A stretch of DNA of 64,000 bases from Bhargavaea beijingensis. Lineage in GTDB: Bacteria > Bacillota > Bacilli > Bacillales_A > Planococcaceae. The position numbers and the translations under genes are program-made. The notes under the pieces were generated by a model. The model did no database searches. It was not told the origin of the DNA and saw only the letters and a list, made by a program, of their open reading frames with translations. Each line of letters begins with the position of its first letter. Within the stretch, counting starts at the first letter, position 1. The DNA is taken from assembly GCF_900101985.1 (NCBI RefSeq), contig NZ_FNAR01000001.1, positions 124,001 to 188,000 on the forward strand, read 5' to 3'. This document shows, one piece after another, positions 10,707 through 47,725 of this stretch.

Positions 10707-10728
10707 GCGTGAAAAAGGGGGTTAAGGG

Positions 10729-10936
10729 TTCGCGTACGAATCGCGAAAGTTCGCGTGCGAAAAACCCTCGCCCCCGTGGTTTGCGTACGAATCACAAAAA
10801 GTTCGCGTACGAATCGCGAAAGTTCGCGTGCGAACCCCCCCGCCCCCGTGGTTCGCGTACGAATCACAAAAGTTCGCGTGCGAAAAACCCTCGCCCCCCG
10901 TGGTTTGCGTACGAATCGCAAAAGTTCGCGTACTAA
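10729..10936. repeat. Periodic array of nine 12-bp TTCGCGTACGAA-type motifs
   Basis: Nine copies start at 10729, 10750, 10780, 10802, 10823, 10852, 10873, 10904 and 10925. They read TTCGCGTACGAA, TTCGCGTGCGAA or TTTGCGTACGAA, with the last copy degenerate. Most are small inverted repeats (TTCG-N4-CGAA). The steps are 21, 30, 22, 21, 29, 21, 31 and 21 bp, that is 21-22 bp inside groups and 29-31 bp between groups. The between-group spacers are C-rich (CCCTCGCCCCC-like). The irregular steps break any reading frame, so this is not coding. It lies between the ispF terminator and the gltX promoter. Confidence 0.9.
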
Positions 10937-19962: not shown

Positions 19963-19984
19963 TGCCGATGTTGTGAATATCGTT

Positions 19985-20104
19985 TGTACCGTAGACAGCA
20001 GGGGCGGCATGCCGCTTAATCTTCCTGCCGAGGACAAAGACGTGCTTGATTGAATGAAGCCGACTTTAATGCCCTGTGTCTGCGTTCGCGGATACAGGGC
20101 TTTT
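19985..20104 (+). promoter_or_regulatory. Ribosomal protein L10 leader
   Basis: The segment carries the conserved L10-leader sequences GTACCGTAGACAGCAGGGG, CATGCCGCTTAAT and CTTCCTGCCGAGG, followed by a terminator stem. In Bacillales this leader binds L10(L12)4 and causes attenuation or repression of rplJL. Confidence 0.88.
20071..20104 (+). terminator. Terminator in the L10 leader
   Basis: A 13-bp stem GCCCTGTGTCTGC / GCGGATACAGGGC (two G-T pairs), loop GTTC, then TTTT. This is the attenuator part of the L10 leader. Confidence 0.85.
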
Positions 20105-20151
20105 CCGTTGATATGCGGTATAAATGAGCCACTCTAACAGGAGGTGTTGAC

Positions 20152-45025: not shown

Positions 45026-45141
45026 GTGGTTGAGTGCGATGAAGGGAGGGGGCTAGGCGAGGATGGGTCATGCCGATCCGAGGATGCTCGCCGCCCGTCT
45101 GTCCGCGGAAACTCTTCCGTCCGAGAACTGCCGATAAGGAG

Positions 45142-45170: not shown

Positions 45171-45230
45171 AATAGCATTCATTTAGTGCTTTATCACGGT
45201 AAAGTGGTGAAGCGAAAAGGAGTCCGTATT

Positions 45231-46547
45231 ATGAACGCAGTGATCATAGCGGTCGCAGTCATGCTGGTCTTGAGTCTTTTCCGGGTCAATGTAGTGCTGG
45301 CCCTGACCATCGGAGGACTTGCCGGCGGCCTGACGGCTGGTCTTTCGATCGAAGATACGATCGGGGCATTCACAGAGGGCCTTGGAGGCGGTGCCACAAT
45401 TGCACTCAGCTACGCCCTCCTCGGCGGGTTCGCGGTTGCCATCTCCCGGACCGGCATCCCGGAGGTGCTCGTCAAGCTCATTCTGAAAGTCGTTGGCAAT
45501 GAAGGGGAAGGGGAGCGGAAAGGACTCGCCAAAGCGCTGATCGTCCTCATCCTGCTTCTGGTCGCCATTTCATCGCAAAATGCGATTCCGATCCACATCG
45601 CCTTTGTTCCGCTGCTGGTTCCTCCCATTCTGCACATTCTTGACATGCTGAAAATCGACCGGCGGCTCATCGCCTGTGTGCTGGCATTCGGTCTCACGGC
45701 TCCGTACATCCTGCTCCCATTTGGCTTCGGCCTCCTCTTCCATGAGGTCATCGCCAACCAGATGGCGCTGGCAGGCCTTGAAATCAACATGGCAGACATC
45801 CCGTCAGCCATGGCGCTTCCGGTTGCCGGCATGGCACTCGGACTCATCATCGCGATTTTCATCTCGTACCGGAAACCGCGTGACTACGGAGACAGCCGGG
45901 CGATTGCCTCCGGTCCGGAGCGGGAAGTGCGGAGACGCAATATTGTGTTCACAGTCATCGCGCTTGCAGCGGCACTTACGGGACAGATCACGACCGACTC
46001 GATGATCATCGGCGCCATCTCCGGTATCGCAGTTCTTTATGCAACAGGCGCCGTCCGCTGGAAAGAGGCGGACGAGCTCCTGAACGACGGCATGAAGATG
46101 ATGGCCTTCGTCGGCTTCGTCATGATCGCAGCAAACGGATTTGCCGGCGTCATCCAGGCCACGGGCCACGTCGGGACACTCGTCGAATCAGCCAGCGGCA
46201 TGCTCGGCGACAACAAGAGCATGGCCGCCCTGATCATGCTCCTCGTCGGCCTGCTCGTCACGATGGGCATCGGCTCTTCGTTCGCGACTGTACCGATCAT
46301 TGCCGCCATCTTCGTTCCGCTAAGCGTCGAATTCGGGTTCAGCACACTCGCGATCATTTCCTTGATCGGTACGGCCGGAGCACTCGGCGACGCCGGCTCC
46401 CCGGCATCCGACTCCACGCTCGGACCAACCGCCGGACTCAATGCCGACGGCAAACACAATCACATCTGGGACACCTGCGTCCCGACCTTTATCCACTTCA
46501 ACATCCCCCTCATCCTCTTCGGCTGGATCGCCGCCATGATTCTCTGA
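45231..46547 (+). CDS. Na+/H+ antiporter family (NhaC/YuiF-type) transporter
   Basis: A 438-residue polytopic membrane protein with about 11-12 hydrophobic segments. It has the two-fold pseudo-repeat typical of the ion transporter superfamily; for example AISSQNAIPIHIAFVPLL and GIGSSFATVPIIAAIFVPL occupy equivalent positions. GDAGSPASDSTLGPTAGLN is a conserved loop of YuiF-type proteins annotated as Na+/H+ antiporters or amino-acid transporters. The substrate is uncertain. Its position next to ilv-leu might suggest amino acids, but it has its own promoter and terminator. The start is ATG 45231 after AAAAGGAG; a frame from 45186 extends into the promoter. Confidence 0.85.
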   Translation: MNAVIIAVAVMLVLSLFRVNVVLALTIGGLAGGLTAGLSIEDTIGAFTEGLGGGATIALSYALLGGFAVAISRTGIPEVLVKLILKVVGNEGEGERKGLAKALIVLILLLVAISSQNAIPIHIAFVPLLVPPILHILDMLKIDRRLIACVLAFGLTAPYILLPFGFGLLFHEVIANQMALAGLEINMADIPSAMALPVAGMALGLIIAIFISYRKPRDYGDSRAIASGPEREVRRRNIVFTVIALAAALTGQITTDSMIIGAISGIAVLYATGAVRWKEADELLNDGMKMMAFVGFVMIAANGFAGVIQATGHVGTLVESASGMLGDNKSMAALIMLLVGLLVTMGIGSSFATVPIIAAIFVPLSVEFGFSTLAIISLIGTAGALGDAGSPASDSTLGPTAGLNADGKHNHIWDTCVPTFIHFNIPLILFGWIAAMIL

Positions 46548-46643: not shown

Positions 46644-46766
46644 CCGAGAGGCCTTCCCTTACCGGGGACGCTGTCTTAGTAAGTGCAAAGCCCGCAGCGG
46701 AAGATGGCCCACGGGCAAAAGCATGGGAGTTGATAAAGGAGCAGCGCGTGGATCGTCTGCCGCGGT

Positions 46767-46890
46767 TTCGTCATTCGCTCCTGAAGTTTCATCATTGGAC
46801 TGGTTGGATTTCGTCATTCAGCCGATAAATTTCGTCATTCGCTAAGATGCCGACCGTGAATGACGAAACCGGTGGCGTAAATGACGAAAT
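46767..46890. repeat. Periodic array of six 11-bp TTTCGTCATTC motifs
   Basis: Four direct copies start at 46767, 46788 (TTTCATCATTG), 46810 and 46831. Two inverted copies follow: GAATGACGAAA at 46859 and AAATGACGAAA at 46880. The steps are 21, 22, 21, 28 and 21 bp. A degenerate direct copy (TTTCGCCCC) starts at 46891. The motif differs from the array at 10729-10936, but the spacing rule is the same. It lies between a terminator and the S10 operon promoters and is not coding. Confidence 0.9.
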
Positions 46891-47195
46891 TTCGCCCCTG
46901 AAAGAAGAAACCGCCGCTGGGACCGAAGCCTGTATTCTCGGAGTTTTTAATGGACACCAAAGCTGCCGGAATTGATTAAGCTCTCGATGAGAATCTTTGA
47001 AAGAGGCGCTGTCCACCGCTCTGCTTGTGGCGCAGCCGCCAATCATCGCAGTGCGGCATCGCGCCAGCAACGTGATTTGCAGAATCACTGCGCCCGCAAA
47101 GCGTCTTCGTTCAAAAGAGAGCCGGAACAATCGACTTCCTTCCATATAACAACCTGGCTTCCGGCAACCTAATATTCCGACTCTTCCCTTACCGA
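46891..47195. other. Gene-free stretch before the S10 promoters
   Basis: About 300 bp. A frame on the minus strand (46792-47337) is open for 181 codons but has no ribosome site, crosses both S10 promoters and the repeat array, and resembles no family I know. No hairpin with a T-run or RNA gene is recognised. Confidence 0.55.

Positions 47196-47332: not shown

Positions 47333-47725
<393 letters not shown>

Follow-up and report, generated by a model that had tools for sequence, protein, structure and literature searches.

What is the regularly spaced set of short repeats found upstream of rpsJ in Bhargavaea beijingensis, and what does it do there? The window analysed here is a stretch of 64,000 nucleotides of this genome (G000), in which the array occupies positions 46766-46889, downstream of a transporter-like gene (45186..46547, plus strand) and upstream of an ORF with rpsJ (47360..47725, plus strand, RpsJ reading from about 47417) and of the S10 leader (RF03136; 47305..47401, plus strand) of the rpsJ operon, all of them outside the element. 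An ordinary L10 ribosomal protein leader (RF00557) is also present in the window, at 19971-20115. The first-pass annotation had described four direct and two inverted copies of one motif at steps of 21, 22, 21, 28 and 21 bp; the array, its six copies and its steps were all verified, though two of the six copies are inexact and each start had been placed one position too high. The direct units, on the plus strand, are TTTCGTCATTC (46766..46776, an exact match), TTTCATCATTG (46787..46797, two mismatches to TTTCGTCATTC) and two more copies of TTTCGTCATTC, at 46809..46819 (preceded by the exceptional 22-bp step) and 46830..46840. A dyad centre of 19 bp (46840..46858), counted from the last direct to the first inverted 10-mer, leads to the minus-strand units at 46858..46868 (TTTCGTCATTC) and 46879..46889 (one mismatch). 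An eroded third inverted unit, GAAAGAAGAAA (46900..46910, minus strand, two mismatches), lies 21 bp beyond the second and had not been recorded before.

The paired unit TTTCGTCATTC-N10-TTTCGTCATT, with up to three mismatches, occurs 65+74 times in the 2.99-Mb genome and its reversed-pattern control not once, so the array upstream of rpsJ is far beyond chance. It belongs to a family of about 30 arrays in the genome, of which 29, with 184 units, were found in the sampled stretches. The spacing rule of 21-22 bp proposed at first proved to be tighter across the whole family, where 132 of the 134 steps between units on the same strand measure exactly 21 bp and the 22-bp step upstream of rpsJ is an exception. 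In two-strand arrays the plus units precede the minus units; of the 21 arrays with a centre between direct and inverted units, 14 have one of exactly 19 bp and the others mostly one of 7-11 bp. The consensus extends to C-R-G-TTTCGTCATT-C-R, after which come six or seven near-random bases. The Bhargavaea loci taken from named records share roughly 77-93% DNA identity with G000. The family was also sought beyond Bhargavaea, and these candidates were rejected: genome-wide pattern matches in Verrucomicrobiota, Planctomycetota, Omnitrophota and others were mostly a different repeat or lone matches, without phasing. The non-Bhargavaea loci concerned (L075-L186) carry a common dispersed repeat, TTTCGTCATTCGTCATTCGGATTTCGTCATT, that appears to have no relation to these arrays.

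A second array of the class, reported at 10729 by the first-pass annotation, was confirmed; it contains nine units of the GTTCGCGTACGAA type (10728..10936, steps of 21, 30, 22, 21, 29, 21, 31 and 21 bp). A third case proposed at the same time (GAGGATG at 45059 and 45080) failed, being merely two copies of a 7-mer that match no family found. The core claim of that annotation, that these are intergenic elements of a class that shares a rule of spacing without sharing one sequence, had been accompanied by a proposal to compare phased short repeats with randomised sequence. Scanning 846 kb without a predefined motif (arrays of at least three units with 9 of 10 bases alike, lags of 12-45) returned 55 arrays at lag 21, 7 at lag 42, 3 each at lags 20 and 40, and 0-1 at the other lags, against none at all in Markov control sequences, and this excess at lag 21 supports the claim strongly. 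The census is a sample, and the G000 stretches were partly chosen for their TTTCGTCATTC arrays and are thus enriched for such loci.

At least eight families can be told apart by motif, including TTTCGTCATTC, GTATYGAGACATTCA, GAGTGCTTCRAA, TGATCTTTCGC, TATGTYAACGTYTCA, ATCGTAACWTTC, TTCTTAACACTC and TTCGTACGCGAAC (the family of the 10729 array). Other Bhargavaea species have additional families with a period of 20 or 21 bp, among them G002 and G004, from which TTTCGTCATTC arrays are entirely absent. The arrays of the class range from 3 to about 39 units, and those examined outside the TTTCGTCATTC family are purely direct (41/41). Each unit is composed of a conserved core of 11-15 bp and a near-random filler of about 6-10 bp that completes exactly 20 or 21 bp. 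Among 23 family cores with a period of 21 bp, the short motif GARTG is present in 11, compared with a mean of 1.0 and a maximum of 7 in shuffled cores (20,000 trials), and the structure is therefore layered, with a class-level constant (often YGARTG in the 21-bp class), a family-level core and a unit-level filler. Compound GAGTGCTTC arrays have grown by tandem duplication. Duplicate arrays in G004 (L070, L072 and L073) are likely scaffold artefacts, with N inside the L070 duplication, and were not used as evidence. Sparse 20-21 bp arrays were seen in four other Planococcaceae genera (small samples), and no convincing ones in the small stretches sampled from other Bacilli, where the single case, in G055, resembles coding repeats. 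In G016, which consists of one contig, the few arrays of the AATAATCGCCAA family are mostly on the plus strand in the first half and all on the minus strand in the second, a possible replication-direction bias.

A role in the expression of rpsJ and gltX, implied in the first-pass annotation, is not supported as a general one. When the gap upstream of rpsJ was compared in eight species, TTTCGTCATTC units were found solely in G000 and G006 (in whose orthologue homology to the dyad-centre sequence at 46840..46858 is still recognisable), G002 and G004 had other families and four species had no array, so that six of the eight lack an array or have a different one, and regulation of rpsJ was rejected as a rule. 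In the G002 gap (L050, 754-1167), TGAATTAWGGA recurs about 21 times with a period of 20 bp, and that of G004 (L056) holds about 39 units of the TTGCAATTAG/TTACAATAAGG type, also at 20 bp, and both families resemble arrays beside a NERD gene in the same genome. These two long arrays show higher-order tandem duplication, a sign of array growth. The array-free gaps (L051, L053, L054 and L055) contain other dispersed-looking repeats, beginning with GACTCCTGCGGGAAA or CGGAGGGTCCGAGACACCTGCGGG, and this site may, as one possibility, be generally tolerant of insertions. The class thus accounts for intergenic DNA that, at this one locus, turns over completely between species.

Arrays of the TTTCGTCATTC family are found at orthologous positions in other Bhargavaea species, and in 15 pooled comparisons the cores are 84% identical, the spacers 61% and the 100-bp flanks 73%. 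No gaps occur inside the array in 13 of the 15, and even where spacer identity has fallen to 27-60% the spacer length is preserved exactly, while arrays of one family at different loci have the core in common and not the spacers. This retention of core and spacing in the face of spacer divergence, an inference from sequence alone, probably reflects selection and not copying alone. Arrays are depleted in divergent intergenic regions (2/41 vs 74/341, p 0.007) and enriched in convergent ones (p 0.005). A location between terminator and promoter, claimed for both window arrays, failed as a rule, one array of five inverted TTTCGTCATTC units (L015:10944-11037; G000:C27:65944-66037) being placed between apparent hisA- and hisF-type genes, about 15 and 38-40 bp away. 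Bhargavaea sp. CC-171006 has this array too, with as many units. The orientation of arrays shows no relation to that of the genes (12 to 9), a point for DNA and against RNA. Taken with the conserved cores and spacing, the avoidance of divergent regions and the array between the apparent hisA and hisF genes, this favours a function at the DNA level rather than promoter control or an RNA role.

Which protein could act on these arrays? A blind Pfam scan of about 30 array-neighbouring genes placed a NERD domain (PF08378) beside arrays of three different families, in two cases beside the family's largest arrays; the other neighbours were functionally mixed. A genome search gave 8-13 NERD genes per Bhargavaea genome, with eight full-length ones in G000. 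All seven G000 NERD genes away from a contig end are adjoined by an array (7/7), with six or seven distinct motifs: TTCGTACGCGAAC; TTTCGTCATTC (both sides); GAGTGCTTC; CGCGCATAGAA; GAAGCACTC plus GTAATCACTC; GTATYGAGACATTCA; and TGATCTTTCGC. The NERD gene paired with GTATYGAGACATTCA is C41:137019. The eighth stops at a contig edge, and its orthologues have 20-bp arrays. Counted strictly, an array lies within about 1.5 kb of 26 of the 33 testable Bhargavaea NERD genes, whereas random 3.3-kb segments have one in 11-15% of cases (binomial p about 3e-16); the figure rises to 30/33 when irregular or weak arrays (L265, L287, L290 and L292) are included, and no array was found within 1.5 kb of L283, L286 or L294. 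The array may start right at the stop codon or up to a few hundred bp off, on either side of the gene.

Matching arrays flank the NERD gene G000:C41:184538-185494, the partner of the TTTCGTCATTC array of the window, and the 10729 array shares its motif and its paired 21/30-31 bp spacing with the array beside its own partner, the NERD gene G000:C18:38017, so that for each window array a partner gene is identified at another place in the genome. Beside the NERD genes L265 and L290, units of the 10729 family form pairs at 21 bp with 30-31 bp between pairs; the window array follows this pattern with small deviations, and the wider gap between groups noted at first was thereby reproduced. A further NERD gene (G000:C33:121944-122861), 1.1-2.1 kb to the left of the window start, has a CGCGCATAGAA array just downstream, and its G005 orthologue (L299) has the same motif. 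NERD proteins occur in 143 of 150 sampled Planococcaceae genomes. Adjacency extends to two other genera (G010 and G018, with small counts outside Bhargavaea); in G008 and G016 the dispersed families tested were not beside any recognised NERD gene (small samples). A phage or plasmid origin was considered and rejected, since the NERD gene C41:184538 has no tblastn match in phage or plasmid collections and six pattern matches in viral contigs were single pairs.

On a tree of 35 NERD proteins, a single change accounts for the periods of 20 and 21 bp and 15 changes account for the 16 motif states, the smallest number that 16 states allow; this congruence partly reflects orthologues at syntenic loci and not independent events. 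The NERD gene of the TTTCGTCATTC family is syntenic in five species, where the flanking layout (five minus units, the gene, four plus units, 19 bp and three minus units) is held in position (truncated by a contig end in G007), and G002 and G004 have neither this gene nor TTTCGTCATTC arrays. G003 keeps about 110 TTTCGTCATTC pairs and is missing the orthologous NERD gene, and an orphan AACGTT-type array in G000 (L033) has no NERD gene of that clade in its genome; arrays can therefore persist without their partner. At the syntenic site of G003 (G003:C5:916645-921170) the flanks and array remnants are still present, and about 3.2 kb of other DNA replaces the gene.

The NERD domain was named by Grynberg and Godzik in 2004 (as cited in PMC12458937) and is classed as a PD-(D/E)xK subtype (PMC12458937); its function in bacteria was first studied in SmdA, a membrane protein (PMC9040797). 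The paralogues beside the arrays are about 310-370 aa long and are composed of an N-terminal NERD domain, a zinc ribbon and a conserved C-terminal module. The eight full-length G000 proteins score about 46-64 bits against PF08378 (cut-off 22.1), and the array partners are thus members of this family by profile match, with catalytic-type residues kept. In six diverse sequences the PD-(D/E)XK-type residues G33 E34 (GE), Q67 xD69 (QxD) and E82 xK84 (ExK) are invariant, catalysis being only inferred, as are the four cysteines of a CxxC...CxxC zinc ribbon. By eye the C-terminal module could be helix-turn-helix-like; it gave no significant Pfam or PDB match, and none to a known DNA-binding family. 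None of the PADLOC defence models matched the paralogues convincingly, and no link between NERD and repeat arrays was found in the open-access literature searched.

The explanation preferred here is that the array upstream of rpsJ is a docking site for a DNA-binding NERD protein, the product of C41:184538-185494, and that each NERD paralogue binds its own arrays. This is considered likely (probability about 0.77); it is inferred without binding or activity data, and what is established by sequence is the fixed period, the motif families, the adjacency to NERD genes, the agreement of the NERD tree with motif and period, and the conservation of cores and spacing. Each paralogue would be paired with its own repeat family, usually with one array beside the gene and others dispersed in intergenic DNA. 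The NERD protein itself would contact the units, probably through its C-terminal part; with two helical turns per unit, successive protomers would lie on one face of the DNA, and dyad arrays would be two such runs facing each other. Of the two alternatives offered in the first-pass annotation, a repeat-reading protein fits, as motif and period track paralogous NERD genes; a copying mechanism that keeps period and not sequence fits less well, as distant loci share the motif and not the spacers and orthologous arrays keep their cores and lose their spacers.

Other explanations can account for part of these data. The arrays could serve as operators for ordinary transcription factors, one or several, that have nothing to do with NERD; the NERD genes would then be neighbours through chance or because they are regulated. 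Protein binding is indeed typically marked by fixed helical phasing and dyads, and some arrays lie between a gene and the following promoter, but the arrays are depleted at divergent promoters and enriched between convergent genes, their neighbours are functionally mixed, and motif and period follow the NERD tree, all of which leaves this explanation with very little credit. Transcribed arrays could instead act as RNA, whether as hairpins, as terminators or as small RNAs processed into units of 20-21 nt. The TTTCGTCATTC dyads could form imperfect hairpins, and arrays often come after terminators, one of them being inside an apparent his operon; against this, the other families examined are purely direct, strand relative to genes is random, spacers are not conserved and the window has no Rfam match apart from the L10 and S10 leaders, making an RNA role most improbable.

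Selfish dispersal, by a copying process that measures 20-21 bp (slippage, nuclease-induced repair or templated synthesis) and both makes and spreads arrays without any binding function, would agree with the growth of long arrays through tandem duplication (upstream of rpsJ in G002 and G004, and in the compound GAGTGCTTC arrays) and with the replacement of families between species at one locus. It is nevertheless very hard to sustain, given that arrays of one family share the core and not the spacers and that orthologues keep cores and spacing, as expected of selection and not of copying alone. Somewhat less remote, but still unlikely, is a separate, unrecognised protein that reads the arrays, with NERD as its partner or as the processor of the DNA it marks. 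The G008 and G016 families without an adjacent NERD gene and the lack of a recognised DNA-binding family in the NERD C-terminus speak for it; in Bhargavaea, however, one motif corresponds to one NERD clade, and such a reader would have to co-diversify with NERD and yet escape recognition among the scanned neighbours. The docking interpretation has a weakness of its own, in that adjacency and co-inheritance could also be seen if arrays began as cis elements at the locus of the gene itself and spread only afterwards.

Several known systems resemble this arrangement in part. In the REP/REPIN and RAYT (TnpA_REP) systems, a single-copy nuclease-type gene is flanked by a repeat family that is also dispersed intergenically. 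Here too a genome has several pairs of gene and repeat family, repeats can be paired in inverted orientation, the pairs persist with no obvious mobility of the gene, and a NERD gene is flanked by its own dispersed repeats (the 26/33 loci), but this is analogy alone and other features fail: the array-associated genes carry NERD (PD-(D/E)XK-like) and no Y1 transposase domain according to Pfam, and the units are mostly non-palindromic cores phased at 20/21 bp with variable filler, not hairpins or short palindromes with a GTAG-type foot. Plasmid iterons and centromere arrays (Rep/iteron, ParR/parC) are direct repeats about two helical turns apart that are read by an adjacently encoded protein. The direct repeats beside a putative reader gene follow the same spacing; they differ in that each family has dozens of arrays scattered over the chromosome and each genome has many families. 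The Pfam scan of the roughly 30 array neighbours returned no Rep or ParB/ParR-type gene, a distant one not being excluded. STAR, BOX and NIME/dRS3 likewise consist of short repeats scattered through intergenic DNA, in which the core is conserved and the spacer varies, but they are single-motif repeats not known to have a paralogous protein set, whereas one spacing rule here spans many motifs, each paired with a paralogous gene. CRISPR arrays differ in having near-identical repeats of at least about 24 bp and longer unique spacers, whereas the units here combine an 11-15 bp core with 6-10 bp of filler, and Pfam recognised no cas genes among the scanned neighbours.

The purpose of the arrays is the least certain part of the explanation. 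Depletion at divergent promoters, mixed neighbours and paralogue turnover disfavour ordinary regulation and fit a self-maintaining or conflict module, and a selfish or addictive nuclease-plus-site module with a logic like that of REPIN/RAYT is placed first, by analogy, even if the odds lean slightly against it. Behind it come a defence or poised nuclease and then chromosome organisation, both conceivable, and last, with little to recommend it, something else. A bolder reading, probable but inferred from sequence alone, is that the Planococcaceae contain an undescribed class of modules, in which paralogous NERD nucleases with private specificities are paired with private, dispersed, helically phased arrays, and in which specificity, motif and period (20/21 bp) would co-diversify within a fixed architecture. 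No earlier description of such a partnership between a gene and dispersed sites was found. If this is true, it would give a concrete and testable DNA target to many NERD proteins, whose function is essentially unstudied, and the many natural protein-site pairs that differ in motif and period would be a good system in which to follow the joint evolution of DNA specificity and helical spacing.
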